DNA of 64,000 nt from Larus michahellis. Taxonomy: Eukaryota; Chordata; Aves; Charadriiformes; Laridae. Positions within the stretch are counted from its first letter, which is position 1. Each line of letters starts with the position of its first letter. A program made the translations under genes and the position numbers. Shown here in pieces: positions 10,771-62,300 of the stretch. The notes beneath the pieces are model-generated. The model worked only from the letters and a program-made list of their open reading frames with translations. It ran no database searches and was not told the DNA's origin. The stretch spans positions 992,001 to 1,056,000 of the forward strand of contig NC_133914.1 in the NCBI RefSeq assembly GCF_964199755.1. The letters are read 5' to 3'.

Positions 10771-11425
10771 CTGGAGGCTCCCGTGGGCAACACTGGGGGG
10801 CTGGCTGATGGGCGTGGGGTCTGGCTGGTGACTCTTGGGGTCTGGGTGGCAACTCTTGGGGTCTGGCTGGCAACTCTTGGGGTCTGGCTGGTGGGACAAG
10901 GGTCAGGTTGGCAGCTCTTGGGGTCCAGTTGATGGGTGTAGGGTCTGGCTGGTGACTCTCGGGGTTTGGCTGGCAGGTGTAGAGTCCTGCTGGTGGATTT
11001 TGGGGTCCAGTCGATGGGTGTAGAGTCTGCCTGGTGACTCTCGGGGTCTGGCTGGCAGGCGTTGTGCCTGGTTGATGGGTGTAGGATCCAGCTGGAGGCT
11101 CTTGGGGTCCAGCTGGCATAGGCAGAGTCCTGCTGGTGGATTCTGGGGTCCAACTGATGGGTGTAGGGTCCAACTGGTAACTCTTGGGGTTTGACTGGCA
11201 TGTGTAGGGTCCTGCTTGAGGCTCTTGGGGTCTGGTTGGTGGGTGTAGAGTCTGGCTGGTGACTCTTGGGATCTGGCTGGCAGGTGTAGTGTGTGGTTGA
11301 TGGGTGTAGGGTCCAGCTGGAGGCTCTCGGGGTCCGGCTGACAGGAGGAGGGTGCAGCCAGCAGCCCTTAGGATCCGACTGATGGGCGCAGGGTCCAGCC
11401 GGTGGCTTTTGGGGTGCAGCCGGCA
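10770..11425. repeat. Minisatellite with 21-bp basic unit (about 30 copies)
   Basis: The core GGGGTCTGGCTGGTG recurs every 21 bases with variants such as GGGTGTAGAGTCTGGCTGG. Because 21 is a multiple of three, the array stays open in several frames. The minus strand reads as proline-rich heptads in two frames (454 and 388 codons), and these are repeat artefacts. The array abuts the CpG island proposed as the RIMS3 promoter. Confidence 0.9.
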
Positions 11426-18765: not shown

Positions 18766-19110
18766 TGGGCATGCTGTGGTGGTGGCCGGGCATGCTGTGG
18801 TGGTGGCCAGGGATGCTGTGGTGGTGGCCGGGCATGCTGTGGTGGTGGCCAGGGATGCTGTGGTGGTGGCCGGGCATGCTGTGGTGGTGGCCAGGGATGC
18901 TGTGGTGGTGGCCAGGGATGCTGTGGCGGTGGCCGGGCATGCTGTGGCGGTGGCCAGGGATGCTGTGGCGGTGGCCGGGCATGTTGTGGTGGTGGCCAGG
19001 GATGCTGTGGCGGTGGCTGGGCATGCTGTGGCGGTGGCCGGGCATGCTGTGGCGGTGGCCGAGGATGCCGTGGTGGTGGCCAGGGATGCTGTGGCGGTGG
19101 CCAAGGCTGG
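18766..19110. repeat. Minisatellite, 21-bp unit alternating in 42-bp pairs (about 16 copies)
   Basis: Units contain ATGCTGTGG(T/C)GGTGGCC preceded alternately by GGGC and AGGG, giving a partial 42-base higher-order pattern. As 21 is divisible by three, all frames stay open, yielding Cys/Gly-rich, Met-Leu-Trp-rich and Ala-Val-rich translations on the plus strand. These are not genes. Confidence 0.95.
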
Positions 19111-35444: not shown

Positions 35445-35570
35445 TCATTTCCACATCTGAGTGCTGAGGGACTGATTGCTTCCCTGGGCACCTCCGCCAC
35501 CCATTGACTGTCCATAGCCCATCATGCCATTAGCTCCATAGAAGTTCATCCCAGCCATCTGCTGGGTCAT
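35445..35570 (-). CDS. SMAP2: SMAP2 last coding exon with stop
   Basis: Codes residues 388-428: [20 protein letters not shown] then a Gly/Ser-rich stretch ending STQMWK. Stop TGA at 35447-35445. Confidence 0.97.
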
Positions 35571-38500
35571 CTGCAAAGGGGAGAGGAGAGAAGTCAAGGC
35601 TATGTCAAGGAGACTGCCAGCCCACAGCAGTCAAAGGTAAAACTCTTGCTCCCCAACACATTACAGGCTTAAGCCAGTTCTTTTAAAGAGTTATGGTGAA
35701 CAGAAGTCACCGGCTTCTCGGGCGTGTGCCCACCTAGCAAGCTGAGGAATTTTTCATTTTAGCTGCTGTCACCCTGATGTTTGTTCTCCACCAAGCACTG
35801 AGGCCTCTGAACAAGTTACTCCTTTGTGATCCCTCAGTTTGCCTGAGGTGTCAGTAGACCTCACCCAACCCCAGGCGCCAGACCATAAAAGCACTGAAGT
35901 TTTCAGGTACGGGGCTAGATTTAATTGTGTGTGCTTCCCCTGCCCTCCATCCACCTTTGGGTCAGCAGAAGATCACGCCTCACCTGAGCAATGTTCCACT
36001 GAAGCTGCTGCGCTGGCTGCACGCCATAGACGGGCTGGGGAACCGCTGCCATGCCAGCTACGTAGCCAGCCTGCTGCGCAGCCATCATCCCGTTGGGGAC
36101 ACCAATGACAGCTGCCTGCACATTACCCACATATCCAGCTGGTATGGCCATGGGAGTCACCATCCCCGCAGCTCCAGGCTGGGCCATCATTCCCACTGAT
36201 GGTGCCATCATGCCTCCCATCATGCTGCTGGAGGGGGCTACTCCCGGGAAGCTTGTATATGCTGCTGCAGGATATGCCATCTGAGCCGGGGCCATGAACA
36301 TTGCTCCTGGAAAACGGCAGAGAAGCCATGAAGAGAAGAACTGCTGCACTCGTTGTCAGGGAATGAAACGCTGACCTTCAGATCAGAGACTATCACAACA
36401 TGCACTTGGCCATGACATCCAGACTAAGCTGCTCATCATGCTACTCACCAGTTCTCCAGAAGGACCACCTACATTCCCACATCTTTGCTTGTCAGCTGTC
36501 AGGACACCCCACCCACTCCGGATTAGCGTACTGCTGTTCCACAGCTCTATTCTGAGATCCATTACCTTGCGCAGGCAGCTGAGGTGTTTGAGAGCCGTAC
36601 AAGGAGAGGATGGAGTCTTTAGAGAGCTGCTTCTTCCCCACTTCCTCCCCTTTTCCTCCTGGCTCAGGGAAGAGATTCAGGTTTTCGGGAACAGAACCAG
36701 CGCTTCCAGATGTTGGCATAGAGCCAGTGACCTGAGACAGAGACAGCACAAGTGCACCAGCTGCATCCAGCACTGGGGGAAGACACATCTCATTCAAGCA
36801 TCTAACTGGGCTTTGCCAAGCACCGACGTTCCCGACTTACCTTCCTGCAGTCGGAGTTTGATCCCACTGATGCAAAAAGATCGAGATCCTTCTCCAAGCT
36901 GCTAGGCCTGCCGTTCGTAACGGTGGCTGTCACAGGAGCATCTGGGGGAGACAAAGCTGCGTGAACACCCACCGCAGGTGGCCGCAGGCTGGGGGGCAGC
37001 CTCCTTGCCAATTGAGCAGGTTGCCCATATGCCGCTCAACCCAGTGACCTGACCTGTAACCTACTTCAGCCAGCGCACATTGCCAGCTCTTCGCTCGTCC
37101 TTCTGGTGCCAAGAAGGAACTGGCTCAGGACCGAGGAAGCGCACTGCGCCATGTCTGTCCTGTTAACCTGGGACCAGCCAGGAGCCACATGGTGTCTGGA
37201 GACCACTAGAGCCGCTCCTGGAACACTACAGGCACAACCGCTGCACCCCCACAAAGGGAAACATAAGGAAAACTGCCTCTGCTGCAGCACTGAGCACTGT
37301 GCTTGAGTTGCACTGCAGTAGTTTAAGCAAAACACTCCAGTATTCCTACCAGCTGTTGTTCACCGACATGGAAAATAAGTACTAAAAGCTCGTCAGATTC
37401 CCAAGACCAAAGATGGTGCACAGGGTCACTGTAACAAGTGCAGTAAGGCTGGAAAGGCTCTCACCAAGTCCTAGCAAGTCCATCACTGGTTCAGTAGATT
37501 TAGGAGAACTTTTTCTAGACTGCTGTGTTTCTTCTTTCTTTTGAGGCTAGGGAAAAAGAACACCAAAAGTCCTGTTCAAATTTTGGGTTTACTCTGATAT
37601 ATTAGAGGCTTTAATGAGACATTAACCCTTAAAATCCTTTTTTCCAGTGAGCGTAAGTGCTCCCAAAGCAAAGGGAATTTCAGAGTGAGTATTACATAGT
37701 TGTTTTATTGTCCCATTACTTTGGGACCCACTGCTAAATTTAAGCATGCTCTAAACTAGGAAACAAGTAGCCGCTCAAGCTGGGAAGCTAAGCGGGGAGT
37801 AGCTGGATTCCAATCTGCTCTGCATTGCGAGGCAGAACACGTCTGCTTAGTATCTAGATGAGCAGTAAAAACAAGCCACTACCATTAGCGTGACTCAGTG
37901 CACCCACTGCTATGACTGAGGCCAGAAAAAATGCCTCCACATCAAGCTGGACTGCTCTGTTCTGCTTGAGAGAAGTGTTTGCAACTGATCCATGACCATG
38001 CCTTTCGGTCTTACCATTTTCACCTTCTCAAAGATGATAGGTTCCAGTTTTCTTTCTGATACTGGCTCATTACTCCTTTTCCATTTGTCATCCTTTTCTT
38101 TCTGTAAGGAAAAAAATACTGACATGAGGGTCAAAACTCATGCCATCATACCAAGAGAGAGTTCATACAGAGCTTTAAGTAAAGCTGCTACTAATCTAAA
38201 AAGCCTCAAAGATACAGCTAAAGACTATATTTGAAGCTAGTCCTGCCAAATTTGCGGAAGGAGTTGGACAAGATGGCCTTCAAAGCTCCCCTCCAACTTA
38301 AATTCTTTCTACAGAATGACTGAGCGCAATCAGCCTTGGAGAGAGATCAGTCACTAATACAGGAAACATTTAAAGTGCCTGTTTTCATGGAGCCACTGCT
38401 TACTCATGAGACAGGCATACACTTATATCTTAACGTGCACTCAAGCTCCTGTAGAAGTGATTAGAAACTAACCCTAAACGCGTTGATGTCAATACTTCGG

Positions 38501-41500
38501 TCCATGTATTTCTTCTTTTCGTATTTATCCCGAATGAAGCTCTCCACGGCTCTGCAAGCAGCTTGTTAAAGACAAACGATTCAAGAATAGAAGACTTACG
38601 TAGTATTATTTGACACGTGGATACAAGGTACAGGCTGTAACTAAACTAATGACTGTTTAAAGAGTATTTCCAGCAGGAACTTTCTTAAAATAATTTACTG
38701 TTGGATCCAACTACTTTACCTGCTCAATTTTAGCCCTGGGGTTATTCCAAGCATGATGGTGCTATAAAAGGTATATTAAATCAGGGCTTAAATTCCCAGC
38801 GTATTTTCTTCACTGACGTATATTTACTCCAACCATCACTTAAGAGCATACACGTCATTAGCACAAATCACACGGAGGTCAGAGAAATGGATCCTGCACA
38901 TTCAGAAGCATCTCAGCCACCAGCTTAAGACAGAATTGATGGTAGAGGTGCTCCTGCCTGTCTTTAGGTTTACATCACTATACTCCTGTTGCACTCTGCA
39001 TCCAGAAACCCTCCCGTACGATTCCAGTTACAGCTTAATTTTTCAGAAGTGTTAAACCTTTTTATCTGTCTCCACTGAGACTTCTAAATGCTCAGCGCTT
39101 TTGAAAGTGACCCCTCCTATTTGCCCCAGACTCTAACACGCATCTCATGCAATAGCTTCAGGTCGTAACATTCGTGTTCCGGTTCTCCACCCTCAGAGCT
39201 CAGAAGGGATCTTTTTAGCTCTCTTCTGCTTCCTTCCATAAGCGAGCAGCCTGCAGGTGAAGCAATGCTCAGGGGGTGCCTAGCTAGGAACTCATTCTCA
39301 CAGCTGACGCCCAGGCACACGAAGTTAAGCCTCCTATGCAAGGAGTGCGGCTACAAAGCGACAAGATGAAAAGGCTCCATGTTTCCCCAGCAGCAAAGGA
39401 AGAAAGGATGCTGATCTGTCTGAGGTCGCCTGAAGTTCTCTGGCAGGTAGGCTTCATAAAGACGATTTGCTTTTCCGTTTCCCATCTCTTGCATGCACTG
39501 CAATTCAAAAGAATCCTTGAACCCTTTGTTTCACAGACATTAAAGCTCTTATACATACTAGCATGACTGACTACAAGCAAAAGCCTCTCTGTGTGGACCA
39601 GAAGGCACGTGTAGACTTTTGAAGTCTGTTCTGTACCTGGAAGCCACTCCTCAGGCTTTTGGTGCAAGCCTACTAGCTGGGAATCCCTGATGCAGTTGCT
39701 ATGATCCCCCCTCGCACAATTAGCCAACCCTAAGCACCACAGCACAATATGTATTCAAAGACAAGAAAAATATCACATTAGCAGCCTAAAGTCACTCTGG
39801 AAGTTGAGAATTTGTCTTCTGGGAACCTCAAGGAGAGGAGGTGGGCAGCAGCTCCAGACACCAGCAGCCTTTGGCAGTTTACAGAAGCTTGCAGCGTTTG
39901 TCTTCACCCTCTGATGTTTGCTGAGCCTGAAATCATGACATTTTCCCTCCCAATCTAATCTCACTTGGTATCTTCTTCCTGCTTCACTTCCCACATCTTT
40001 GGCCTATTCAGACTTTGTTTATCGCCCAGCTTACCCATCCCCGCCAACAGAACGCCACTGTTCGTGTTTCGCTCATTACCTGTATCTGTTCTTGTGTCCA
40101 CTGGTCGAGATTGACAGATTTTACCCTGGATATATGAACTCCCAGGTTCCTGTGGATCCCAGCACAACGAATACAGATGAATACACCGATATTCCAGGAC
40201 GCCCATCGTGGCCCTGCAAAGAGACACAAGTGTTTCACACCAGCACGTCAAGCTGTAGTTGCCTTTAGCAACTGAGAAACTGTACCAAGTGAACTGGGAC
40301 CGAGGCGTTTACATTTTCATCCAGATTAGAAACTGCGTTAGACATCAGCAGGACATTTAAAGATTGTCTCCCAACGCTTATACTCAGAGCGAGTATTTTA
40401 CTGACTCCCTCTTCCGTTTTGAGGGCTCTACACAGCTCTAAGGGGAGGAGGGAAGAAAACAGGCATTCAGACCACCCAAGGCACTACAAAACCCCAATTT
40501 CTTCTTGCTTAAACTGATGCAACAGTCATGTCAGTGTAAGTCTGTGTTCCTGCTTTAGCAATGGAGAACTTTTCTCAGGTAACCCTACTGCAGTGGGATC
40601 AGCTCCAGAATATTCACTACTGCTCTCGGAAAGGCAGTATAAAATAGCCAGCGTCTGACAGACAGACTGTATCATCAAGTCTTCTGAGAGGCTTATGCAG
40701 GGAGCTACGGCTGAGGCAGGAGAGCAGGACAAAGCCCAGTACGCTGGCCACCAAAAAGCCACAGAGCCAGGGGCAGGACCCCGGGTTGCAATCCTGGCAG
40801 GAGGCTGATGATCAGTTCACTCCGCAGTTTCTACAGCTCTCATCAGATTCGTGGTTTGCATGCGGCTTTCAGACAGGCAGGAGAGCTCCAAGGGGCAGAA
40901 GGGAGATCATGCCAGGGGAAAAAAAACCACAAGGGAAAGATTGACAAGCTTAGCTTTACTCACTGCAAACAGTTCTCTGAAGGAAACCCAGCAATGCATC
41001 ACCCGGGGGAGGGCAGAGGACCACAGGCACTCCCACCCCTCCCAGCCAGGGCCAGCAGACCCTGGCCATCGAAACCCTCAGTCCCGCCAAAGGAATACCA
41101 GCTTCGGAAGTAGTTCTCTGCAGTGCAAGACAAGCAGGTTTTCAAACTAAATCATCTGGCTGGAGCTGCCAGCCAGCCACACAGTCACTGCGGCCAGCTT
41201 CCATCCTGGGCTGGATGTCACCATCCACGGGTAACCGGCCAAACAGCCACAGCAAAGCCACATCCTGAATGAGGGACCCAATAAACTGTACCAGCACTTT
41301 TTATAGTGATTGCAGGCATTATTGCAGATGAAGAGTTATTCTGCCTTTTCTTGCCATAGTTAAAATAGCAAGCATTAAAGCTAATGAGACTGAGGTGGGA
41401 GGGGGAAGAGGGGGAAAGTGTAATTTCAGAGCCCTAAAAAAGCAGCACTGTATTTGACTCTCCTGGATGTGCTAGATGGCTGTTAACAGTTTAATTCCTA

Positions 41501-44500
41501 TTTAGCGGAAAAGCCTAGAGTATCCTGAGGGATTTGGTGCTGCTGAGTGCAATCAACGGCTCATGGTCCCTTCCAGGGCAAAGGCGTGCAACCTCTAACT
41601 CACCCCCAGTACCTATTCCAGCTAACTCAGGTTATGATTAAAAAAAAAATCTCTTAAGGCTTCTGGCCTGGCCTGCCATTGCTTTCTGCTTTTTCAGAGA
41701 ATCATACCCAATTAATGAAGCTGATGAAAGTCACTTCCCAGCAGCTTAGGCACAGCTCTCGGCGAAGACCTGAGCAGAAGCACACTCCTGCCTATACCTC
41801 AGTTCCTTTGTTGTACTTACCAAAACAGGACCGAATGCAGCAAAGCGGGGGCCCATACTTTTAGCAGCACTTAAGTATGCCAGGCACAAAATAAGGCATG
41901 GAAATAAAAGGCTTCTTCAATGTTACACCTGTAGCACGCCAAGGTGAAGCCAGGAACCCTGATGCTTCATTTGATTTATTTGTGGAGCTCTCTCCCAGAT
42001 ACACACTGAAAGCTATAACGTGAGACCGCCGTCAGGATTAAGCATGAGATTCAAGGTTAGATTTAAACTCTAGATATATTTAGCCTTTATAGGACTAAAA
42101 GGATTAATAGTCAGCTAGATACTACATCAGGGCTGTAGTAATCAGCTCACCGGTTTGTCACATGTGCTCGCTCGAGCCACTGCATCCTCCTACCCCCCGA
42201 TGCCACACGAGAGGATGATTCAGTGGTACAGCCTGTTATGCCCACCCTGCCTTCGCCTTACTTCATTTGTGATGCAGGATCTGAAATAGCAAGGGCTGAG
42301 TACAGGAATAACAGCTGACGGTTGCTGCAACTTGTAGGTCCCAGCTCTGGAAGACCCTAGTACTGGAAGAGCTTCATTGTGCCAGTGACTGTCTTCAAGA
42401 AATAGATATGTAGGCTTTCAGAAATCCTCCTAGCAGCTAGCATTTGGCTTGGTGATAAACATATTATACAACCAGGGGTAGTTCTCTTTACTGATGCTTA
42501 TTTCAGCCAGGGTTTGGGCCTACCTGCAGTGCCAATAAATGCCATAAGGCTTTAGGTGGACCGACTAGAGGAAATACCAGAAGTACGGGGCTGTGAGGTC
42601 ATTTTTGCCTGAAGCCAGGAGGGAGAGGGTGAACCCAGAAGTTCAGCAGTCTGCTCTAACACGGCGGTGACTCCAGAGCCACAGGAGCAGGATGTTTGGG
42701 TGGTTCTCTGGAAATGCTGCCCAAAGTCTGCAGCCAGCTCTGTGGTTCTGCACGGCATGTCAACTTGAACTCTAGATCCGAGGGCCCCAGGCTTTTGGAG
42801 ATAACCAGCAATTTCTTTAGCCTAGTTACACAGCCCTGTATTCTAGCAACACTGTGATTTTAAAAAAAAAAAAAAAAAGAGAGGAACAAGGTAACAGCTA
42901 CATCCCTCGAGAGTGGAAAAGTTACTTTAAGATAAGCAGCTGCAGAAGAGACCCCCTTGCCTCAACGGCAGCAAAGGCTGACACGGGAGGGCTCAGAAAA
43001 CGGGGAAAGAACAGCCAGGGCTGAGCGGAGCAGCAGCCTGTTGGCAGCACTGTTAGGGAAGTGAAGTGTGTCCCGCTGAATCAAACTCCAAACAACTCCA
43101 TGCTCATTAAAATTATCATTTTTACCATTTCACTTCTTATAAAGCACTTAGTTCTGTGGGCAAGGGGGGGATGGGGTTTGATGGAAATGTAAACAAGCTC
43201 CCCACTTCCCTCTTTTCAGGCCACGGTGACGGAGCTTGCGCTAGAAATCACACAGGGGAAGTGCCCATAAATATCTGGCTGGGGAGAACATTGTACAGTC
43301 ATTTCCCCTCAATTTCACATGCCATTTTCAAGGTGACTGACTTGCAGAAAGCTCCAGGTGGTATTTACAGACACAAGTTTGGTCACATGCTGCAGCATCT
43401 AACTTCCCAAAAACTAAACCGAGCTGAAGACTGCACAGAAGCTCCAGTGACGGAGCATTGGCAGAAGTGGTAAAACACCTTAGTAGAAGTTAAGGGCACA
43501 ATTTTTTCAGAGAAAAAAATGTTTTTATGTCGGAAAGTCACTTTAGAGAACAACACAGCAGCGTTTATCGGCATTGCCAGCGCCGCCATGGAGCGCTATC
43601 ATCCCTCACAGCCTCTGCGCACACCCCGACACTCACCACTAATTGCTCGCGCGAGGGCAGGGCACGCCACGGGGAGCACTTCACCCGCCGGGTTCAGTCA
43701 ACCCCGGACACTTAAGATGCCAAAGGTTTTAGGACAAGGCTAAGAGAAACACTTAGCTTGTTAAACCACTAGAAAGAAACATGAAAGAAATTGGTCCTCG
43801 CATGAATACTCCCGCTAATGCTATAAAAATAGTTCCCCCGAGGCTGGCATCCTCGCAGCCACCAGATGGCTTCAGAGCTTACGGCCCAAATGAAAACTCG
43901 TTCCCATATGCAGCGCTGGGAGTTTGCTGCAATGACAACCAGTATCAGACACGCAAGCCTGATGCTGCAGTCACTTTTGTTTCAGCATTACGGCTCATTC
44001 TAACAGCTATGGGAAGCAAGTTACTTGGCGCCAACTCGGGCTGGGCATCGCTCGTTCCGTTCTGATTAAGCCTGCCATGCCCCTGTACATCACCTCATAC
44101 GTGCACAAATCCGTCCTGGAGAAGGCCAACCATCTGCAGGTGAACACGAGATTAAAAAAAAATGTCAGTTTTGAGTAAGAGTCAAAGCTTATTTAAGAGC
44201 CCAGCTATACGCTCAGTTCTGGCACAATATTAAGGCCAGCTCAGACCACCTCGGGACATACTCCTCGCCTGGCAGTGGTTGCAGGAAGATCTCGAGCTTA
44301 AAAGCATCTCCTGCTCAGTCAGTTTTTATTTTAGAAAGCTGCACTGACGACTCGAGTGCATTGCTAAGCGAGGATGCGTCCCCACCTAGCAGACTAGAGA
44401 GCTACGTGCGAGCAACTCGGGTGCCTGGCCGGTGCTTCCGTGAGACAGTATCACCGCCTGTTTTCTACCCCAGCCTGTCCAAATAAACCCCGCATCCCAA

Positions 44501-47500
44501 GCTGGTCATACCAGCTTAAGTTAGAATCATCAATGCCTACAAGGACTGCCTGAATGATCCGCCCTTACTGAAGAGGTTCTCGGTTCCCTCTAAAACCCCA
44601 GCGCAGCCTGGCTAGTCCCCACCATGTCTTAGTCACTTGCTGAAAGTTCACACCCTTGAGTGGTTTTAATCAAGGAATCCCAAGGGGATTCACTCCTCAC
44701 CCTTTATTCAGGCATTAGATTTTGGCTCAAGCTACCCATGCAGGTTTCTTTGGTAATAACCCTCCAGAAGGCGTTTAAAAATAAAACAGAAGTTGGCTGC
44801 AAAGCCATCGCTCTTTTGAGAAGGGGGGGGGGTGTCAGGAAAAAAATAGATGCTTTCATAGGCAGGAAGGAGAGAACATCGCTATTCAAAGCCTAATGAA
44901 ATATTCTTAGTGCAAACAATCGTTCGACTCGCAGGCTCCCTGCCTGCAAGCGCTCCAGCAAAAGCCCAGCTGTAGCAGGGAGAAGCGCCTGCCCAGCCCA
45001 TTGATCCCAGTTAACACTGCTGCGTGTGTTGGGCTACGGCGGCGTACAACCAGCCCCTCTCAGCGCTCCCAGGGGAGGTGGATGTGGGAAATTCGCCTGG
45101 GAGTGGGATAATCCCTGCGAGATGACAGTCACATCCTCTCGGACAAGCCTTCACCAGTACTTGGAAATTTCTCATCGAGACAAAGTTGAAAAGCCCTACT
45201 TTTTTGCAGAGCCAAATGAGGAAACAGCCAAGTATCCAAGAGCTTCCTCTGACTTGTGGTTTCCTTATTCTGGAAAGGGATTGCTTAATGACTTACTGAA
45301 ATTCATTCCGCTCATAGAAAAGCTATGACAAAGGCTGTCTTACAAAACAACTTCCTCTGCTCTCTACTGTAGATGTCTGTCCTACAGTCAAGTGTTCAGA
45401 TTAGTTTGGGGAAACAAGGTAAACTCCGCAAGTGGGTAAAAAGCACAGTTAAACTCGACTTCAAGATCTCTAAATTACGCTATTTAATTATTAACACAGC
45501 CTAGTTAGTTACTGGCCTGAGCGTGCATCCTGATGCAGGGTTCATGGACCTATCTGAGATTTGTGAAGGCTGATGCCTGCCGTACCTCCAGGTTTCGTAC
45601 CAGATAAGCTATTTGTGTAGTTTTTGGGAAGCCATTGGAACCCAGTGAAACAGGGATGCTAAAGCCAAAAACTCTGTACCAAGGGAGGTTGGTAGGGATA
45701 TATATCTACTCAAGCAGTTTAGTGGTTCAAAAATTCAACTTTATGCCATCATTTTAAAGATGAAAGGGCTGTTTTCAGGGTTTTTCTTCGTCTTGTTTTT
45801 TTTTCCAGTAGAAGATTGCTGCAGTAGTTATAGGCTTTAACTACTCTTTGCAGGAAAAAGGAAGAGCCAGAGGCATCTAAGGAGGCTGAGAATATTGCTT
45901 CCAACAACAGCTTGGAGTTTGCCTTAAAAATCTTCTTGGTTGTATTAGCAGCAACCAGTATACTCTCTCCTTCCCCAAACCATGATGTTGGCTACAGGTA
46001 CCTTACTGGCCAAGTCAGATCAAACTGACTGGTGCCGGCTCTGTTTCCTCTCAGGAACAGGCTTTGAATCTTCTACGGTTTACCAGAAACGCATAATATT
46101 TGAGTGCCCGGTGGCCTTGAAGGCAGCCACACAGCAGCACTTGATCTAGCTTTGCGTAGCAGTGAGCTTGCAGAAGCAGCCTTCAGTGCTCATCTTATCA
46201 TCGTTACCATCTTGTTCTTTGAACACGTGCTGTGATGATACAAATGCAGATGGAGCAAGGTGGAGGAAATTAAAATCGATGCTGTGAACAGCAGGGCAGG
46301 TCCTTCCTGTTGTTCAAGAAAGTGATGTTTATTACTTCAGTAAATAAACGTGAAAGCAACAATTTCAAGCAGGTGCTATAATAAGAATCCATGCAAGAGG
46401 ACTGGTTAACATTACCAATACTGATGACCACAATGCCTAAAAATAGATAAATTCGGCCAAGTTCCATGATGCATGTATTCCTGCATAGCAAGAGTCCCAG
46501 CAGCTAGATGCTCAATATCAGAGATCAGGATTTCATAGTGTTCCAGCGACGAGATAACAGATGTCCAAGCACTAGATTTTAGCCAAAACTACACATGAGT
46601 CAGTCCTAGAAGTTGCTAGGGTAAAGGCAACAGATTTCAAGGAGGCCTGAATTTCCATGAAATGCAAAAAAACTAGGTAAACACCATCCCTATGCCCAAC
46701 CCGCACATAGACAGAGCAGCAGGATGGAAACTCACACTATCACTACCATTTCACCCCACCAAAATTCAACTTAGAATTTCTCCACCAAACTCCTTACAAG
46801 ACATCTGCTCACCCAGCTTTAATTCCTCACTGCATTTTGGAAATATTTAGACCCTATCTTCCAATCTCAATTGAGTTGTGGAGAGAAGTAGAAGTCACTA
46901 AGTCCTTAAAATAGCTCCTAACAGAGGAGGGGTCTGAGCTCCTGGGCCACTTTCTGCTTGGTTGACAATCCCTTCGATATCTAGAGCTAGACATGAACTA
47001 CTTTTCACTGTCAAAGTTACCAAAAAAGGACTTGACATTCATAAGGAAAGGGCATAACCTGGCCAGTAAGGAATGGCATGTTTTGCCAAAAATAGAGGTA
47101 AGCAGTTTAACGAGGCACTGAAGGTCCAATGATAGCACAGGTAACCAGCTTTGCAGTCAGAGGAAGCTTTGCTCTAAGAGAGTTTCTCTTAAAAACTCAA
47201 ACTTTTCCTGTCCTAGATTTCCCAGGACACACAAAGTAATCACTATTCTGGATCAACCTGGAGGAGACCAAAGCTATTCTTGATTCTCTAGTTGGTTTTG
47301 ATAACCTACTTGCATTTTGCAAGATGAATTACCTTTAAACGGCAGAGGCATTTTCTGAAGAGGCTGGCACACAAGTTCCTGAGCATGTTTGAAACCTTAT
47401 GTAATTCATCTGGCAGTTACTATAGGAACAAACTTTTACTAGAAGTTACAGCTATGCTCTGAGAATCACACGGCATTTTTTGGACCCTTGATGTACACCC

Positions 47501-50500
47501 TCTGCTATACAGCCACTCACCACGCAGGCTCTCCGTGTCCCAGGTGGGTCTGTACAGCTGGTAGAGAAGAACAAGGCTGTTCGAGCTGACATGGTTTGCC
47601 GAGATGCCCTCCGCTTGGAGGATTATCTTTGTTATCTATTTCTGGCAGATGTAGAGACACGTACATCCCTGTATGACTCAGAGCTCTGCGCATCTTTTCT
47701 TAAAGGGTATCTTCCTACAACTCTCCTAAGCACAAACCAATTCCAGAGCAAGTCCCCACTGGAAAGGCTGATGCTTTTTTAGCTTGCTTGGTGGCTGGAA
47801 TGGGAAGTTAAAACTTCCTTCGAGCAGGTGTACGTAGGGCCAGGCTCACAGCTGGACAGAGCTGCACTCCTCCCAGCCAGTCGTACACCATGGCGGTGCT
47901 GCTCAGACAAAGATCACTGTGGGATAAAGCCAGTCTCACAAAGTTAATTTCTGAACACTTATTTGCACTCGCTTGAAATTAATGCCACCTTATGCACAAG
48001 GCTATTCCTTCCAGAGCTGACTTTAGAAGAGAAGGACAGTTCAGAAGCAGAAGAGAAAACGTAGTGCTCATTAAGATAACTGCAGATATTGTGACTGCAG
48101 CTCAGAATCAAAGTGAGTACACAAGCACATACGCATCCCCTCCGGTAAGCTTCCATTACATAAGACTGAGCTTTCTCCTAATACAAGATTTTCTAAGGCA
48201 TGCTGAGAAGCTTTAGTGCTACCACTTTGGTTTTTGAAGCCCACTGCAGGCAAACAGTACGCACCACTACCCACTGCTCAGCTTTCCCATAATGATCATT
48301 TCTTCATCTCATGCAGTTGTTCCAGGCAGCTATTTAAAAAGTTACTCTTCATATTGCTTTTACTGAAAAGGAAATTCAGCTGCGATTCAATAGTCTGCTG
48401 ATGGAGGAGTTGAGTCACAACAGATTTTCATTGAATATTAGCAACATGTTTTATATTAATACTAGTTTGGCTGGACTGAGCCAGCTGTAATAAGCCAACT
48501 CCCCCATTCCACTGGAAGTCATCGTTCCTTAACTGCACCTACTCTAGCCCCAAGCTTTTTATCCTGCTCTTCCTGCTTCCCACCCAGTATTTAACCACCT
48601 CTTAACAGGTATTTTCAAAGTTCTACCCCTCTTTCAGAAAAGACTGCTGGACGAATTAGATCTGGGCTTGTGTTGGGGATCAAGTAGTTTCCCATCTAAG
48701 CACTAAAGTTACAAGAAGGGGTTGATTTCGGCATGGAACCCACAGTTCTCACGAGACAAAGGACGAAGGGAAGAGTCAGACAAACCAGGAGGAGCACAGG
48801 GCAACCTTAACTGATGGACAGAGCAGTCCTCGCTGGTGCTCCCTGTGGAGGAACCTGCCGTTCTGACGTCAACGAAACTGGATCCAAGGAGCCTGTTGGA
48901 TAGATAGGACTGGAAGAGCAGAGGGGAAGAGTTTGGGAGGAGGAGAGAATCAAATAGAATTAGCTGTATGTTACACAAGTTGAGCACAGAGCTTCAGAGT
49001 CAGAAATGCAGAGAACCCCGTCAATGCAAGTGTTACTCAACACAAGGCATCTTCCATTTATTGGAAGGCATCTGAACCCTTAGGTCAAGCCCAGCTTGCA
49101 CAGATTACACCACATCCCTCCTTCATCTACATTGCAATTGCAGCCTCCAGACTCATTCTGATGCTCAGCAGCGTATCTTCTGACAGACACTCAATACGGT
49201 CAGGCTGCTCCACAGTTGTGTTATCTTACACACACACAAAACCACGACAGCAACACAGCTGCCCTCAGAAGGCCCTCTGCCATGAAGAATGCACTGGTAG
49301 AAGAGATCCCGATCTCACTCATCAACAGCTGCTCTTTTAAGGCGTTTTGTTCAAGTGATTCATACAGCAACGACCTTCAAAAAGAGGATTATGATAATTC
49401 ACCACTCCAGCTTTTAGCCAAGACAGCCGCGACCACCTCAGCCACGCTGGGCAGTCCCGAGGGGAGAGCTGCATGGCTGCAGGTGGAGCACTGCTGCGAG
49501 GACTCCACACCGGCGTGTTGCTTTTGATCATTGATATTAGTGTCGTGACAGCATTCAGAGCTGCACGTGAAAACCACTGAGTAACCTTCGATAGCACTTG
49601 CAAGCGGAAATCCGCTGTTCTGTTTGTGCCTGACACGGCTAGATTATGTCCTGAAAGGCTGCCACTGAGCTGCCGAGTCCTGTTCTGATCAGGTAGTGAA
49701 GAGACCCCTCTCACACACACGTGAGTTTTCACTCCTAAGCCCCACTGCCAGAAAGCCACGCTCTGCTTTGGCGCAGGAGGTACTACTCACTGCCTGTCCA
49801 CCCGCCTTTGCTCAGATCACCCCGTTTACCCACGGTTACTTTGGACAGAAAGTTTGCAATGCAAAGAGGAAGAAGAAGGTGCGAGATCTCGCCCAGCTTC
49901 CTCCAAAACAAGAGCCTCTAACCACAGCAGTGTTTATTGTTGCAGAAGCAAAAACCACCCTGAGCTCTCTTTCCTGGTTTCCTTGTCTTTTTTTCCCCCC
50001 TCCAACCCCTTATACCCAGGACATTAATGGCTTGCCTAGGCAAGCCATCAGACTCATGCTTCTGCATTTTTCCTTTCAGGGTCATCTGTGTAGCTCTTAC
50101 AGAAAAGTTATGCAGAGAAACCACGTGAAGCCATCGTTGTCTTCAACAGCTTGTTGGAAGAAAAGCCTTGGGAAGGGTGATGGGCCCTGCTGAAGTCACT
50201 TGAATCCCAGACATAGCGGGGGGAAGGAGAGTATATGGGAGAAACTAGTTTCCCCTCCTTATCACACTTAAAGACGCGAGTTGGACTAGGAACCACTTGT
50301 ATGCACTGCCTGATGGAAAGCAAGTAATAAGAACATCACAGAAGACGACCTTCTCTCTAAGCAATCACTTTGATGAGGGCACAAGAGATGGAAGATGCCC
50401 AACTGTTCACCAGCACGGCACAGCAAACAGTGTGCTTGCTATACTGGTCCCAGAGCACCGGGCCCAACCAGTAGCCAGCATCAGAGAGCTGATGTTGCTG

Positions 50501-53477
50501 AAAACCAGACTTTTACCCCAAGGCTGTGAGTTTCGGCAGAGCACAAAATCAAGTGGGCACATACTAGCACTGCAGCTCACACTAACAGGTACTGAGATCT
50601 CGTTTAGTTCTGTGTATAGAAGTGGAAAAAATACAGTAATGAAACCCGGCAAGTAGTTAGGTCATTGGGAACAGGCATAATGGAAGTGTGGGTGGCAACT
50701 GAACAGTCTCTGCCTATGTGTCATGGTAGCTTTGAAACGCTCTGATCAAGCGGCAAACCACTACAAAATTCAGTAACTTCAGCATAAAAACAGATGGTCA
50801 AAAGCCAGTGTTTTATTGTAAAAGTATTTTGCTAGGTGCTGTATGAGCCGCTAGGCTCTCACTCTGCCCTCAGTTTTGTTGAAACTCATGCAAAAATCCT
50901 TATGATCTTGAACATGAGCTGCCAAAGGAGGGAGCTGGCGTAAGGAACATCACCTGCCACCACCAATCAGTGGTTGGTGACCAGATTTCAGCTGTGACCT
51001 TGGCACAGCTGAATAAGAACAATATACTTGTGTATATTTTATTATTCTTAATGTATCTCAACTAGTGTAGCTAGACTTGCAGTTGGGTAAAACCAGAGCA
51101 AGTCAGCTGTACAGCAAAGCGGCTTTTCTTTCAGGTAGCACTGGAAATGCTGAGGGAAGCCATCTGGAGGTAGCAAATACCACGTGGCCGCTCATTAGCG
51201 CACACTTGCACAGAGTTTTAGTTATTAAGAAGCCATATATCAAATGAAATGTGCTCTTTACTCTGCACTAGTGCACCTGGGGTTCACGTCCATACGCAAA
51301 GCAGAACATTGCAGTTACTTTCAGCAGCGGTAAGGACATCGGGCCTGCCTTGCCATCGCTGCAAACCAGCACCAGTGCCGTGCTGGGAGAACATCACATC
51401 AAGCGCCAATAACCGAAACGCAGCCCAATATGATGCTTTGACTTGCATCAACTCCCAGTCAGACACCTGGCTGGAGAACTCACTGCATCTACACCTCCTG
51501 TGGCCACGATCTCCATATGTTGCCCTCAGGAATGAGATTTCACATGTCCATGAATCTCATTAGTATAGTGGATAATTATTTTGCCAGATAACTCTGTACA
51601 AGAGACACCTAACTCTTCATGACTGATGCAACCTACCTGTCTGCCCAGACACAAGCAGCTTCCAGCTTTAGTGACTGAACTGTACGCTTTGATTTTTATA
51701 CATAATTAACTGGAATACTGCATTCCCAGGATGTACTATGAAGAAGAAAAGCTAGTCGCATCAAACCAAGTAACCTGGAACTGTTATGAGAATTTGTTTC
51801 CGTGTTGTGTACACTACTGTCTCATGCCTCAAAACACAAGATAAGACAGCTATTTTTGCCCTTGGCGCTGGCACTAGGCGCCAAGAGATAAGGGATTTGC
51901 AAGCGAGAGGAACATTCTGCTCTCTGCCAACACCACCATGTTCAACCTACATGGTCAACCAAAGCCAGGTGTGAAACACATCTCAAAACACACCATCTCC
52001 AAGATAAGACAGGTTGTTACAACGCGGTTATGAGGCTTTAGGGGTCCTCTCAGAGCAGCACTGAAAACAAACCTTAATAGCAAGATTTTTTTATGTTGTT
52101 CAGCGGTGCTCTCTACAGTTTTTAGAGGTCATACTGAGGTCACTACATCTCCCACTTACAGATGGACATAGAAAGACAGCCCCTACTTCATTTGCTGCAA
52201 CAATTGGCAAACAAGCCTCAAGTTCAGATCTCCAAATCATTACAACAGCTCATTAAAATAGGATTTTAGGTAGGCATGGGCATAACCTCAACCCTTTTGC
52301 TACAGGAAAGCGAAGCATTTCACAGTAGCTAACTACAGAAAGGCACCTGCATCACCACTGAACAAGTAACAGTTGCTTTAGTCATTTGTCTTCTAGAATT
52401 CAGACATTTACATCCGGCTTCCTCTCTACCCCATTCCACTCCTTTCTAAGAAAAATAAGGAACACAACATGCCTTGAAATCAATATTAAGTGGAAAAGGA
52501 AGCACAGGACTAAATATGAAATTCCTTCAGTGGTACTTGGCTCCAGGGCTAGGTTACAATTCCTTCCTTTTCCTTACACGCTGCACTTCAAGTACTGCTC
52601 CTATCTGATGCCTAAGGATGATCTGCTGCTCACGTTACAGCTCTGATTTACAGGATATTACTCCTCAGCCGGAATGCCCTCCAAAATTACGCAACACCAG
52701 CTTTCCAGGCTCCTCCTAGTGCAAGACTTCTCCAGAAGAGCAGTTCCCACAGGCGATTAAGTGTTTTCACACTGACATTTGAGGTCAAGCCCCAGCGTAC
52801 TCCAAGAGCCGATGAGTTTCCATAAGCTGATCTCCGGGGGTTTCCTACTCAAGAGCTGCAGAAGCTGGGTTACAGAGGCTGCAGGAGGGGGTCTTCTGAC
52901 AGGAGCACCGCCAGCCCAGGCTGCCACCACCACCAAGGAATTAAATTCTGCTGAAGCCAAGTTTTGTGGGATTTTTTCCCACTTTTTTCAAGCACCAACT
53001 AAACCAACAGGGAAACCACCTACAAACCCTCAAACCGCCCCCGTCCGGCAGCGGCACCGCTGGCCCTGCCCGCGGCCGGAGCCCTCCCTGCCCGCTCACG
53101 GGGGACGCTGGAGCGCAGAGCTGCGCCCCCCTCTCCCGTCCCGGGCCCAGCCGGGCCTGTCCTCCCGGAGGAGTCGTCCCTCCTCCCACCGCTGCGGCGG
53201 CCCCCGGGGAGAGGGGACATCGTAGGACCCCCGAGAGCCCACTGTCAGCAAGCGGCGGGGGGGCAGCGCCCCGCCACACGCCGGCACCGAGAGGGGGACA
53301 ACCGCGCCGGCCCGCTCCCCCCAAGGCCCCGCTGCCCCCTCAACCGGCTCGGCCCGCGGGGAGGCCGCCGGTACCTTTGGCTTGGCAGTCGGCGCAGTAC
53401 TTGTTCTCCTCCTCCACCAGCAGGCTGGCCAGCACCGCCTGGTACCGGTCCACGTCGCGGACCGACTTGCCCGTCAT
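35445..53477 (-). CDS. SMAP2: SMAP2, stromal membrane-associated protein 2 (ArfGAP)
   Basis: Ten exons on the minus strand: 53477-53375, 40213-40080, 39497-39412, 38551-38473, 38101-38015, 37546-37465, 36941-36841, 36731-36566, 36306-35984 and 35570-35445. They total 1287 nt, or 428 residues; human SMAP2 has 429. It is a GTPase-activating protein for Arf in clathrin-dependent trafficking between early endosome and trans-Golgi. Seen: an ArfGAP zinc finger with C28, C31, C48 and C51 (CX2CX16CX2C) and the family's arginine finger at R56 (IHRNLGVH). A basic region ([12 protein letters not shown]) follows, then a clathrin box LLGLD at 187-191. A region corresponding to the CALM-binding segment of the family follows, then a Met/Gly/Gln-rich C-terminus ending QMWK. 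The start ATG sits in the CpG island and gives the family N-terminus MTGKSV. Confidence 0.97.
35984..36306 (-). CDS. SMAP2: SMAP2 coding exon 9 (tandem acceptor)
   Basis: Codes residues 280-387, the Met/Ala/Gly-rich segment with [12 protein letters not shown] and [16 protein letters not shown]. The acceptor reads CAGGAG, so a three-base alternative start at 36303 would delete one Gly. The longer form is used in the totals here; the human protein as I recall it matches the shorter one. Donor GTGAGG. Confidence 0.95.
36566..36731 (-). CDS. SMAP2: SMAP2 coding exon 8
   Basis: Codes residues 225-279 plus one base: [51 protein letters not shown]. Donor GTAATG. Confidence 0.97.
36841..36941 (-). 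CDS. SMAP2: SMAP2 coding exon 7
   Basis: Codes residues 191-224: [20 protein letters not shown] then [14 protein letters not shown]. The TNGRPSS segment differs most from the human sequence I recall. Donor GTAAGT. Confidence 0.96.
37465..37546 (-). CDS. SMAP2: SMAP2 coding exon 6
   Basis: Codes residues 164-190 plus one base: [20 protein letters not shown] then VMDLLGL. It contributes most of the clathrin-box motif LLGLD, whose Asp is completed in the next exon. Donor GTGAGA. Confidence 0.97.
38015..38101 (-). CDS. SMAP2: SMAP2 coding exon 5
   Basis: Codes residues 135-163: [20 protein letters not shown] then PIIFEKVKM. Highly charged, exact codon boundaries on both sides; donor GTAAGA. Confidence 0.97.
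38255..38320 (+). mobile_element. Old, decayed CR1 3'-end remnant
   Basis: GGAGTTGGACAAGATGGCCT followed by CCCCTCCAACTTAAATTCTT resembles the CR1 3' end (TTGGACTAGATGATCT ... CCTTCCAACC ... ATTCT), but is heavily diverged and lacks the full tail repeat. It lies in SMAP2 intron 4. Confidence 0.55.
38473..38551 (-). CDS. SMAP2: SMAP2 coding exon 4
   Basis: Codes residues 108-134: [20 protein letters not shown] then DINAFR, ending the ArfGAP region. The acceptor is preceded by a U12-type branch site (see 38565-38573). Donor GTTAGT. Confidence 0.96.
38552..39411 (-). other. SMAP2: U12-type intron with GC-AG ends in SMAP2
   Basis: The 860-base intron begins GCATCCTTTC, matching the U12 donor consensus (A/G)TATCCTTT at every position but +2. 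It ends TTGCAG. GTCTTTAAC at 38573-38565 matches the U12 branch consensus (TTCCTTAAC), with its adenosine about 14 bases before the intron end, the short spacing typical of minor introns. Phase 2 joining gives a codon CA|A for Gln between TD and AV. Confidence 0.8.
39412..39497 (-). CDS. SMAP2: SMAP2 coding exon 3
   Basis: Codes residues 80-107 plus two bases: [20 protein letters not shown] then NFRRPQTD. The frame of the next exon forces the exon to end at 39412. The intron then opens with GCATCCTTT, a minor-spliceosome donor motif with C at position +2. Confidence 0.93.
40080..40213 (-). CDS. SMAP2: SMAP2 coding exon 2
   Basis: Codes residues 35-79: [20 protein letters not shown] with C48 and C51, the arginine finger R56, and [13 protein letters not shown]. 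It is the core of the ArfGAP domain. Donor GTAATG. Confidence 0.97.
40214..53374 (-). other. SMAP2: SMAP2 intron 1
   Basis: A 13.2-kb intron of ordinary to AT-moderate composition. It has A runs at 42859-42875, a G run near 44823-44831 and a 22-base perfect palindrome at 50027-50048. No nested gene, tRNA or recent transposon was recognised. Overlapping short frames on both strands have no domain signature. Confidence 0.8.
50027..50048. repeat. Perfect 22-bp palindrome
   Basis: The half-site ATGGCTTGCCT is followed directly by its exact reverse complement, with no spacer. It contains TTGCCTAGGCAA at its centre. It lies in SMAP2 intron 1. Confidence 0.9.
53375..53477 (-). CDS. SMAP2: SMAP2 coding exon 1
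   Basis: Codes residues 1-34 plus one base and holds the first zinc-ligand pair (CADC, C28 and C31). Donor GTACCG is weak in its +4 to +6 positions but is the only one in frame. It lies inside the promoter CpG island. Confidence 0.95.
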
Positions 53478-56353: not shown

Positions 56354-59300
56354 GTAAGTCCTCGGCTTGGTCCCCCTCGGCTCGGTCCCCCTCGGCTCCG
56401 GGCTGGGATGGGGGACGGAGAGGGAACGGAGAGGGGACAGTGTCCATCTCCCCCATTGCAGACGCTCGCTCGCGGTGCTGAGCGCCCCTGGGACTTGCTG
56501 CTTATTTTTCCATCACCTTTTCCTCGCTTTTCCCAGGAATGCTCCACTGGGGGCGGTGGGAGCAGCCCCCAGCAGGGACCCACAGCCCTGACCCACCGGG
56601 AACCTCTTCGTGCCAAAAGCTGCCTCCAGCCGCCCAGAACAGGGACAGGGCTGGGCTGCACGCCCGGGCGTTTGGGACTTGTTAGCTAAAGTGTAGTTTT
56701 ATTTTCCCCTTGGGGCAGCAATGGGGGCTCTCTGCCGTTTCCCTCCCCAGCAACTGCCAGATCTTCTGCCTCCCGTCATCTGGGAAGACAATTATTTGCT
56801 TCTGCTCTGCTGGGAGGTGCTGCGGAGCTGGGCTGAGAAGGGCTGAGGGGGGCTCTGACCACCCCAGGGCTGCCCCGGGGGGGTCTTGCCGAGGGGCAGT
56901 AGGGAGGGACAGCAGCGGTGGAGGTGCTGGGGGCCGGGGGTCCCGGGGGGCTCGCTGGACTCACCCCGGGGCAGGAGAAAACGCGTGGGAGAGAAGTGAA
57001 GGGAAGGTGTCCCTCTGCTCCGCGGGGTGAGCAGGGCAGGCAGTGCTCCTCCTGCGATCCCACCCGGAAAGAGGGAAAACTCTCCCTGCCCTGCAACCAC
57101 AAAAATCAGATTTTTATAACAGATTTGGGAAAAATCTTCCCGTGTGGCTCCTGAGCTGCCTGCCGGCACAGAAAGCCTAAATGCGGAGAGCTGGGGGGGC
57201 AGCTGCCTTCCGAAACCAGCCCCCCCCGGGCTGCCCGTGGGCTTGTGGTGGCAGGGTCTGGGCAGGGGAGCGGGCTCCGGCCGGAGCGAGGGGGATGTGG
57301 GAGCTCCTGGAACAAGGAACCATTTGGAAATGGTTCGGGCAGGACAAAGGTGCCATTCACGGATGCTCCCAGGGACGGGTGCTCCCACCCCGACTGTGGG
57401 ATTTGCTTCCAAGGCGAAGCCGGAGTTCTCCTGACCAGCAACACCTCTCATCCTTATATATTTCACTTTAAAATAAACAAGCCTGGCAGGACGGAGGAGC
57501 CGCAGGCGTGCAGCCTGTCTGGTTTTCATTTCCAGGAATACCGGGGCTTCGGTCTCGGGGCATGGAGTCTCTTCCCCCCCGACACTCCATTGGGATAACT
57601 GAGATTTCTTTGCAAAGTTGCTCCTGTGGAGCACTGCGCAAACCCCCGCACGGGGCCAGGCGGCTCGGGAGCCCCCCTGCTGCCGCTCAATGGGGCTTTT
57701 GTGCGGTGCCGCGGCAGGCAGCCAGCCCCGCGTGGGGACGGTGGCTCTCAGGGGGGCTGGGGGGTCCCCATTTCACACTGAGCCTTCGGGCACCTAAATC
57801 CTGCTGGCGCGCTCAGAAATCCCAGTGCTGGGCTTGCACCCCGAGCCGCCAGGGGCCTTTGCAAGCGCTGCCGTCACCCCACGGAGACCTGGCTCCGTCG
57901 GGGCAGGACTCCGCAGGCACTGGGGCAGGAGGGGAGCACGATGGGATAGAAACCAGGCGGGACATGGGGAGCTGGTTGTGCCACTGTGGGGGAAAATTCC
58001 AGGATTTCTCCATCCATGCCCTTGCCAGGGGGCACAGGCCAGGCAGCGGGGAACCCGTAGGGAGGGACAGAGCCGTGGGGCGCTCGCTCCGTCCCAGCTC
58101 TCTGGCGACGGGTCCCCAGCACATGCCGGTGGCGAGCGCTGCACCCTGGGCTCCCTCTGACCCCCAGCATCTCCTGGGGTCCGGTTGCTCCTTCCTGATG
58201 TGGGTCCCATCCCTTTCTCCCCTTAGCGAGGGCCGCCGGGAGAGCCCGGCCCGCGAGGTCCCCCCGGTCCCCCAGGAGTGCCGGGAGCGGACGGCATTGA
58301 CGTGAGTACGGCACAGCCGGGAACCTGCACAGGCTGGAGGGAGGGAGGGAGGGAGGGAGGGGACCTGCAGCACAAAGAGGGACTTTGTTTAGGGGCAGAG
58401 GCTCGGTGGAGGGCAGGGGGGTGCTGATTCCGAGCGATTCCCGCACTGCTCTGCTCTTGGGCTGGGGAGAAGGAGGGCCACAGCTCCTGCACCGCGGCTG
58501 CATCCACCTCCCCAGGACAGCAGCCCGTGGCCTCCTGACCTTCCTGGGAAACGGGGCCTGAAATGCTTTTTTGGGGACCAGAGCGGCAGGGAGGTTTCGG
58601 TGCTAGGTGCTCGGGGCATCCCCGTCCAGGCAGCGGAGGATGCTCAGGGGGTCGAGTGCAGGGATCATCCCGGGATGCCCAGGGAGGAGGGGGACTCGGG
58701 GGGGCCGGCGGGGAGCAGGACACCCAGGTCGGGTGCCCGCAGAATGGCAACGTGGCCGAGGGCTGTGGCAAGCAGCCGAGGGCTCCCTGAACAGAGGGGA
58801 GATCTGTGAGCCAGCAGAAAGCACCCTTTCTCCCAGCCTTGCCCCCGCTCCCCCCTGCCCCAGGCTGTTATTTTAGTGCTATTTATACCCAGAACAGCCG
58901 CAGCCCTCCCACAGCCCCAGCACAGCCCTCTCACCTCAGCCCCGGCCCCATCCTGACCCGGCCGCTGTGCTGGGGGATCCAGCATCTCACTCCGGCTGGG
59001 GGAGGTCAATGGGAGACACCGGTCCTGAGCCCCCTGCGCTGCTGGACCTGGCTCCATGGGGTGACAGACCCCTTTTTATAACTTTCTTCTCTTTCCCCAG
59101 GGTGACAAAGGCTCTGCCGGAGCCCCTGGGTCCCCGGTGAGTACAGCTGCCTGCCCCCAGCTCACCAACAGTCTCACCCCTTCCAGAGGAGCTCCTTTCA
59201 ATCTGCCCCCATGCTGCTTCTCTTTTGAAGGGTGCCAAGGGCGAGCCCGGAGCCCCCGGTCCAGACGGACCCCCAGGGAAGGCGGGCATCGATGTGAGTA

Positions 59301-62300
59301 CCGACCCCTTGTCGTCCCTCCCCACAGCATTCCTGGCCACAGCCCCCCGGTCACAGCAGGGTCTCAGCAAACTCCTCTCCCCCCCCGGTGCAGAAAGTGC
59401 CCAAATCCCTCCCTGCGGGAGCTGAAAGCCCCTTTTAAGTCCCATCAGAAAACGCAGGCAGAGGTTGGGCAGAGCTGCTGCCACCCCCCTCCCCCTGCAC
59501 TGGCCCCAGCAGCGCATCCCTGCTCTACACAGCGTGGCAGTCGGGCCGGGAGAGCCAGGGCACAGCACCGACATCCCGCGACGTGAAAAGGCTTTTCCTT
59601 GTCCTTTTCCTCAGCTGCTGCCCCGAGCCCTGGTTCAGCTCTCGTTTTCTCCAGCATAAATCTGGAGCAATCCCTTGCCCCCCCGGCACCACCCCCTTGG
59701 CACCCACATGAGTGGCAGCGGTGACTTTCCCCACTGTCCCCTCGCCGGCAGAAGCACAGCCAGGGCAGAGGTGGAAGCCAGAGCTACCTCCTTGTCCTGC
59801 CGTGATGCCGTGATGAATGAATGGAACAACTGTCGTTACAAGCACGCGTTGCGCATCCAGGCGAATCTGCCTGCAAAAGAGTTTGGCTCCTTTGAACACG
59901 GACGCCGCGGGCATGAGGTGCTCCCCTCCCGTGGCATCCAAATCAGCCCGTGGGTGAAGCACAAGCCATCAGCTGTGGGGATCCAAACCCCGGCACAAGG
60001 ACTTGGGGACGGGGGAGCCAGGGAGCGACTCTGAGTTGATATAACCAGGATCATGGATGGTCCAAGCTCCCCACGTGCCTGTGCCGGGGCCGGGGCAGCC
60101 ATGCTGGATATGCCCTGTGGGCGAGGGGCCCTGCCGAGCCCCGCCGTGGGGTCTCGGAGCTCACGGGGGCCGTGGAGCATCGCCGTGAGGCTCCCTGTGC
60201 CATCGGGGCTTGGCTGCAGGGACCAGCTGCATCTCCAGGTTTGCTGCGTGACGTGCACAGGGGTGACAAGCACAAATTCCCCACTGATCACCCTCGACCC
60301 CTCGTGGTGGAAAAAGCCCCAGCAAAAACGCCTGGCTGGAGAGCAGAAGCGCAGGCAATAACCTCCCACCATCTCTCCTCTTGCAGGGCTTGACGGGAGC
60401 GAAAGGGGAGCCGGGGCCCATTGGCGGGCCAGGAATTAAAGTGAGTGAGGGGCTGCTCCGGGGCAGCCACTGCGGGCTCCCACCTTCCCTCCCTGGAGCC
60501 AGCGGGGTGGCCAGGCTGGAACCAGCCCCATCGCCCCGGGGGGATGCACGGATGCAGGAACTGGGCGATGGAGTATTTGGCAACAAGGGGGCACTGAGGC
60601 TGGGTCCAGGGAGGGGCGAATTCTAGGCTTGGTGGGGCCAGACTCTCCCATTTTGGCTCCTGACTTTCCCCTTCTCCTGGCAGGGCCAGCCCGGACTCCC
60701 AGGGCCGCCAGGGCTCCCCGTGAGTATCTGCCTCTCCCATGGGCACTGGTGATGCACGTGCTCCCGACTCCGGCACCCACTCCCTGAGCACCCACGAGTG
60801 GGGTGGGAGCAGAGCAGCCCCCCCCAGCTGCATCCTTGGTGGTGGCGTGGGCATTGCCCCGCTCGGGGCAGGGATGCTGGTGGTTTCAGGGGGGTATTGG
60901 AGAATTTGGACCAATTTTTTCTTTCTTTTTGTTGCAGGGCCCTTCACTGCCAGGACCACCCGTAAGTGCTGGGCTCGTGGGGCTGTGGGCAGCCAAGGAC
61001 CCTGCTCGGGGTTGTGTTTGAAGAGCTGAAATCCCAGCACCCCCAAAGAGGGGGTCTCAGGGCTCGACCTCTCTCACTCCGTGAATGTCTCTCTTCTCCT
61101 TAAGGGGCTTCCAGGCCAGGTTGGGCTTCCCGGAGAGATTGGAGCGCTGGGACCCAAGGTGAGGGGTCGGGGGGGATGTGGGAAAACCTTCCCTCCTTAC
61201 CGCAGCATCTGCTTCTCCGCACTTTCGGGGCCCCTGGGGTAAACACGGATGACCCTGTAATATGGGCGAGTGGGGTCCTACGGCAGGGATGGAGAGGTGA
61301 CAGACTCCGTGCCTGCAGCCAAGTCCCCCAGCACCATCCGTCCCCTCCCAGCTCGTGGCTGGGGGATGCCCGAGTTCCCGCTGTGACCGTCTAGGTCTCT
61401 GATGCCTCGTCACCCCTCTCCATCCCGGGTGGAGGGTGGTACCTGCCACCTCCCCACCCCTGAATCTCCTTTCCTGGGGTTGTTCTTTCCTAGGGCGACC
61501 CTGGACCCGACGGCCCGCGGGGTCCCCCAGGCCCTCCAGGGAAACCCGTGAGTATCCCCCCAATTATTGGCATTTTCTGCAGGCAGGAAAAAGCCCCCCA
61601 GCCCAGGGTTTGGGGCCGGGACTCGGGCTCTGGCACAGACCTCCCAGCCCGTGCCTTGCCTCCCTCCCTCCCAGGTGTGACATTCACCCCTCCCGTAAAA
61701 GAGTGCTGATATTAAACAGTGCATGCTGATGGTCTCCTTCCCCCCAGGGCCCCCCAGGACACATCCAAGGAGTGGAAGGCAGCGCCGATTTCTTGGTGAG
61801 AGCTGCCATTGCCTTGTCCCTTCAGCCGGCCTTTGCAGGGCAGCGGCAGCTGGAAGAGCGAGTGCTGCCCTGGCCTGAAATACAGGCACCAGCGTAATCT
61901 GGTACCTGGGGGCTGGCAGAGCGGGGAGGAGCAGGGTCCCCAGCCAAAACCATGCTGTCAGCGGTGGCTCCCCTGCGTCACCGCACAGCCCTGCGTGGCG
62001 CGGGAACCCATCCTTCCCAGCACGGCTTCTCCACAGCCGCTGGGTCCTTTCCCAACTCAACCTGTGCTGCTTCTTCCCCACCAGTGCCCCACCAGCTGCC
62101 CGCCAGGTCCCAAGGGCCCCCAGGGACTGCAGGGACTGAAGGTAAGGGAGCCCTGGAGCTGCCAGGGAGCGAGCAGGGACCGTCACCTTCATCACGCTTT
62201 GCCTGGGCGAAGGAGCCTGGACAGGTTTGGAGCGATGTGGAGCTCCGGAGCTGCCCTCTTCCCCTGGGAGCACAGGGCCATGCACACTCAGAGAGCCCTG

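Follow-up and report, generated by a model that had tools for sequence, protein, structure and literature searches.

A probable U12-type intron with GC-AG ends in the SMAP2 gene of Larus michahellis

U12-type introns that begin with GC and end with AG are already known as a rare subtype, to which the intron described here, intron 3 of SMAP2, adds a case. In the part of PMC7367187 available to us (Table 2), GC-AG introns make up 0.97% of the U12 introns of chicken, 0.61% of those of human and none of those of zebrafish; among the U2 introns of chicken the share is 2.2%. The initial annotation of this locus had called a GC start rare for an intron of this type. One such intron is found in Drosophila CG16941 (SF3A1), for which the passages of PMC2831892 at hand state both that the human gene is without the intron and that the intron is GT-AG in mammals. 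It resembles SMAP2 intron 3 in being U12-type with GC-AG ends, but the gene is a different one.

The closest described vertebrate case is in human LZTR1. According to the relevant passages of PMC8280824, the GC-AG minor intron of this gene is affected by depletion of CENATAC and is outcompeted by a GT-AG version in a P120 minigene. Loss of ZRSR2 impairs excision of the LZTR1 minor intron, and LZTR1 is lost through nonsense-mediated decay (excerpts of PMC8171363). Intron 18 of human LZTR1 is U12-type and interrupts the coding sequence between c.2219 and c.2220, ahead of Tyr741 (Ala744 comes three residues later); read-through of its start gives rise to p.Tyr741His (both from the accessible text of PMC12652346). 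Because read-through yields this particular substitution, positions +2 to +4 of the intron must be CAY, which would agree with a GC start; the passages of PMC8280824 give no intron number. The human LZTR1 intron and SMAP2 intron 3 have the U12 type and the GC-AG ends in common, and retention of the former leads to loss of the product; again, the gene is different.

The window (the whole stretch of 64,000 nt analysed here) contains the SMAP2 coding region on the minus strand at 35445..53477, with 10 exons, 428 residues and an intact reading frame. Exons were placed with a human SMAP2 probe and were then joined into one frame. The Pfam ArfGap domain (PF01412) covers residues 15-126 (4.2e-44). 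Among solved chains, the peptide encoded by exons 3 and 4 matches 2iqj better than 2crr (SMAP1B); the title of 2iqj is 'Stromal membrane-associated protein 1-like', and we take this structure to be SMAP2. Exon 3 (39412..39497, minus strand, 86 nt) ends with ...ACAGATCA in phase 2, and exon 4 (38473..38551, minus strand) starts with AGCCGTGGAG. The remaining eight introns of the gene all have GT-AG ends; their U2 scores range from 3.8 to 12.5, and none has a U12 score above -10.5.

Intron 3 (38552..39411, minus strand) is 860 nt long, in phase 2, and splits codon 108 within the ArfGAP domain; the initial annotation had placed it correctly to the base. Its ends read tca|GCATCCTTTC...GTCTTTAACAAGCTGCTTGCAG|agcc. 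The U12-type donor, GCATCCTTT, occupies 39403..39411 on the minus strand, where 39410 is the C at +2, and the acceptor AG (38552..38553, minus strand) lies within GCTTGCAG. As a query against its own genome, the intron returned a single match, the window itself.

The initial annotation stated that the reading frame forces the intron to start with GC. One-base shifts of the boundary that retained at least 50 of 54 residues generated 26 joins, one of them with a stop. Accepted terminal dinucleotides occur in just two: the GC-AG join (39412/38551), which leaves the protein unchanged and has a U12 donor score of 9.5, and an AT-AG join (39410/38549), which we rejected on the basis of a U12 score of -14.6 and the replacement of a conserved Ala by Pro. 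The CA-GA join (39411/38550) keeps the protein without providing splice-site dinucleotides, and was also discarded. Of the 26 joins, GC-AG alone thus leaves the protein as it is while also providing accepted ends and a U12-like donor, and the notion of a forced GC start is right in substance. From 150 nt before to 250 nt beyond the donor there are two cryptic GT donors with a U2 score above 3, one upstream of exon 3 (4.3) and one 110 nt inside the intron (4.1). Neither is strong, though both exceed the 3.8 of SMAP2 intron 1.

The consensus of U12 donors is RTATCCTTT, and that of U12 branch sites is TTCCTTRAC, located about 10-15 nt from the acceptor. To score both intron types we used matrices that are approximations from consensus frequencies. 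The intron 3 donor scores 9.51 as a U12 site (the maximum possible is 16.12), compared to -9.5 as a U2 site, or -2.9 if the C at +2 is left unpenalised. On these approximate matrices the comparison of U2 with U12 scores, suggested in the initial annotation as a way of overturning its reading, has the opposite outcome. The U12 donor score is equalled at 8 of 127,984 window positions on both strands (six GT, one AT and this GC); of the 10,622 GC dinucleotides in the window, the intron 3 donor is the one that attains it. Comparison of GCATCCTTT to GTATCCTTT shows agreement at 8 of 9 positions, with +3 to +9 intact, as expected from the earlier description of a U12 donor consensus altered only by C at +2.

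The U12-type branch site, GTCTTTAAC (38565..38573, minus strand), scores 9.06 and agrees with TTCCTTAAC at 7 of 9 places, which leaves two off consensus. Its second A is 14 nt before the intron end, the distance reported initially. Of the 9,270 AG sites, 19 are preceded by an equal or better motif when the A is placed at 10-16 nt, and 59 when it is placed at 8-40 nt. Intron 9 of SMAP2 (window 35983-35571) also carries a U12-like branch motif, CTCCTTGAC, with a score of 12.0 and its A 34 nt before the AG; this intron has a U2 donor and is without a U12 donor, and the motif is probably a chance match. Because so high a score can occur at 34 nt and without a U12 donor, the branch-site score alone is not diagnostic.

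Little or no polypyrimidine tract is expected of a U12-type intron. Between -20 and -4 of the intron 3 acceptor, 10 of 17 bases are pyrimidines. The other eight introns have 9 to 16 of 17, so the value is low, although not the lowest, and therefore does not decide the intron type. U2-type GC-AG introns retain a donor context of the U2 kind (AG|GCAAGT-like); they have their terminal dinucleotides in common with intron 3, but the context is missing from it (tca|GCATCC, -2.9 with C allowed). On this basis we rejected a U2-type GC-AG identity.

A peptide search of the same genome returned four matches, of which two were the SMAP2 exons themselves and two were exons on another contig, C3. The latter encode stretches of 29 and 20 residues which, compared by eye to the displayed part of the SMAP1 chain 2crr, differ from it by one residue. 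A third SMAP1 exon lies upstream, in the correct order (SMAP1 was checked for these three exons). The SMAP1 intron at the matching position (C3, between 98955117 and 98951386; 3,760 nt, GT-AG) is preceded by the same CAGATCA, starts with GTATCCTTTT and has TTTTCCTTAAACTAGCTGTTTCCAG as its end before AGC, at the same codon and in the same phase, 2, as SMAP2 intron 3. Its donor, GTATCCTTT, is a perfect U12 donor with the maximum possible score, and its branch site, TTCCTTAAA, is 15 nt from the AG. The two introns share their codon, their phase, the donor core ATCCTTT and a U12 branch site; the SMAP1 intron differs in its GT-AG ends, its perfect donor and its length (3,760 vs 860 nt). A CR1-like repeat tail is present inside the SMAP1 intron.

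Sequence identity between the two introns is unevenly distributed. From +1 to +9, 8 of 9 positions are identical (only +2 differs), and from +3 to +9 all seven. Beyond the core, 35 of 91 positions agree between +10 and +100 (ungapped), and 16 of 28 third positions agree in exon 3. On the basis of these differences in identity, the U12 core has outlasted the rest of the intron. Such persistence is what use of the minor spliceosome would produce.

The LZTR1 minor intron of this genome (C25:1058500-1063200, positions 254-469; 216 nt, phase 2) is GT-AG. It follows ...EDSL|YLFA, at the same codon as human intron 18, and has the ends GTATCCTTA...TTCCTTAATGAGATTAACAG. The donor scores 14.25 as U12 and -1.44 as U2, and the branch A is at 12 nt. 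With GC in human and GT in this genome, the LZTR1 donor shows that vertebrate lineages can have different bases at +2 of an orthologous minor intron; it is the same donor base that differs, in another gene. GC-AG ends occur in one of the three U12 introns viewed in this genome (SMAP2, SMAP1 and LZTR1), a proportion that gives no rate, SMAP2 having been preselected.

The strongest evidence comes from the paralogue: since the intron of SMAP1 that matches in codon and phase is perfectly U12, we read SMAP2 intron 3 as a U12-type intron that was inherited and has C at +2. We put the probability at roughly 0.9 that it is a bona fide U12-type intron already present in the ancestor that SMAP1 and SMAP2 share, with a donor that reads GCATCCTTT since +2 is C. 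The signal scores, the failure of the U2 model and the SMAP1 intron all support the U12 type with GC-AG ends proposed in the initial annotation; most likely the sequence finding is real and that reading right. SMAP2 intron 3 would then enlarge a class of minor introns that has very few members by one from a vertebrate, for which the sequence support is good.

It is also conceivable, though unlikely, that the U12 intron of this species is of the ordinary GT-AG form, and that the C at 39410 stems from an error in the assembly or from a rare private variant. A single T at this position would produce exactly the SMAP1 donor GTATCCTTT, and the base is known from one genome assembly; moreover, GC-AG introns are less than 1% of chicken U12 introns in the portion of PMC7367187 used here. 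Yet other GC-AG U12 introns do exist, as the excerpted reports indicate, and the surrounding gene is clean: the 428-residue frame is intact and the eight other introns are GT-AG. The assembly consists of 616 contigs for 1.405 Gb, in which a single copy was found, with no second haplotype to contradict (or support) the C.

If SMAP2 intron 3 is a U12-type intron, then its excision would fall to the minor spliceosome. U11, and then U6atac, would pair with the intact UCCUUU core, the order in which these RNAs act at minor introns, and U12 would pair with GTCTTTAAC. The C at +2 would have to be tolerated by U11-48K or at later steps, and splicing may be less efficient than in a GT-AG minor intron. 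Some transcripts would retain the intron, encounter the in-frame stop at 39351..39353 (minus strand), 19 residues past Gln108 and inside the ArfGAP domain, and probably be degraded. As to origin, one substitution of C for T at +2, later than the separation of SMAP1 and SMAP2 and kept by drift, seems most likely; we place it on the SMAP2 side because the U12 consensus has T. The first three bases of the intron do not pair with U11 and are read by U11-48K (passages of the review PMC3584512), so that a loss of pairing to U11 would not be the cause of any weakening. SMAP1 provides a built-in control, as it has this intron with a perfect donor and belongs to the same genome. A comparison of SMAP2 to SMAP1 retention in matched RNA would gauge the weight of +2, a base unpaired by U11.

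The human LZTR1 GC-AG minor intron (as described in the passages of PMC8280824) makes it plausible, as the initial annotation supposed, that a GC start weakens splicing and may thereby have a regulatory effect. A stronger proposition, added to the inherited U12-type intron, is that the GC donor is a selected weak site, such that retention of intron 3 sets the dose of SMAP2 ArfGAP in a manner dependent on CENATAC and ZRSR2; we consider this quite unlikely. Drift accounts for the C at +2 equally well, and retention of minor introns would commonly truncate the protein in other genes too. The proposition has in its favor the stop that retention would bring 19 residues on, within the ArfGAP domain. 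Also in its favor are the CENATAC sensitivity of the human LZTR1 intron and its defeat by GT-AG in a minigene (available text of PMC8280824), and the impaired LZTR1 excision and nonsense-mediated decay that follow loss of ZRSR2 (PMC8171363, in part). More doubtful still is the possibility that the C at +2 has been fixed in a bird lineage and selected there, with the minor intron of SMAP2, and not that of SMAP1, kept deliberately weak so that SMAP2 ArfGAP output tracks the activity of the minor spliceosome (CENATAC, U6atac), and with the GC of human LZTR1 arising independently.

That intron 3 is a U2-type GC-AG intron whose U12 likeness arose by chance is barely credible: GC-AG ends are commoner in U2 introns (2.2% vs 0.97% of U12 introns in chicken, from the same part of PMC7367187) and the acceptor, with 10 of 17 pyrimidines, falls inside the range of the other eight introns (9 to 16), but the U2 donor score of -9.5, or -2.9 with C accepted, compares to 3.8 to 12.5 in those introns, the U12 donor score is equalled at just 8 of 127,984 positions, and the intron that SMAP1 has at this codon is perfectly U12.

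Among the papers searched, none links SMAP2 to a minor intron or SMAP1 to the U12 type; the supplementary tables of intron databases may well list SMAP2. The passages seen of PMC10639083, PMC4176328, PMC8199999 and PMC10851011 mention neither SMAP2 nor this donor. Outside the genome itself, a search for relatives gave no match among viral contigs and one bacterial match, of 19 query residues, among genome contigs, which was not used.

The window also contains repetitive sequences elsewhere. A degenerate minisatellite with periods of 41, 82, 143 and 225 nt lies at 10859-11415, where more than one minus-strand frame is open and encodes a Pro-rich peptide. A tandem array with a 21-nt unit is found at 18763-19102 (16.2 copies, 88% matches). 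Collagen-like Gly-X-Y stretches occur in minus-strand frames at 57,000-63,000, and presumably, by synteny, these frames may belong to COL9A2.
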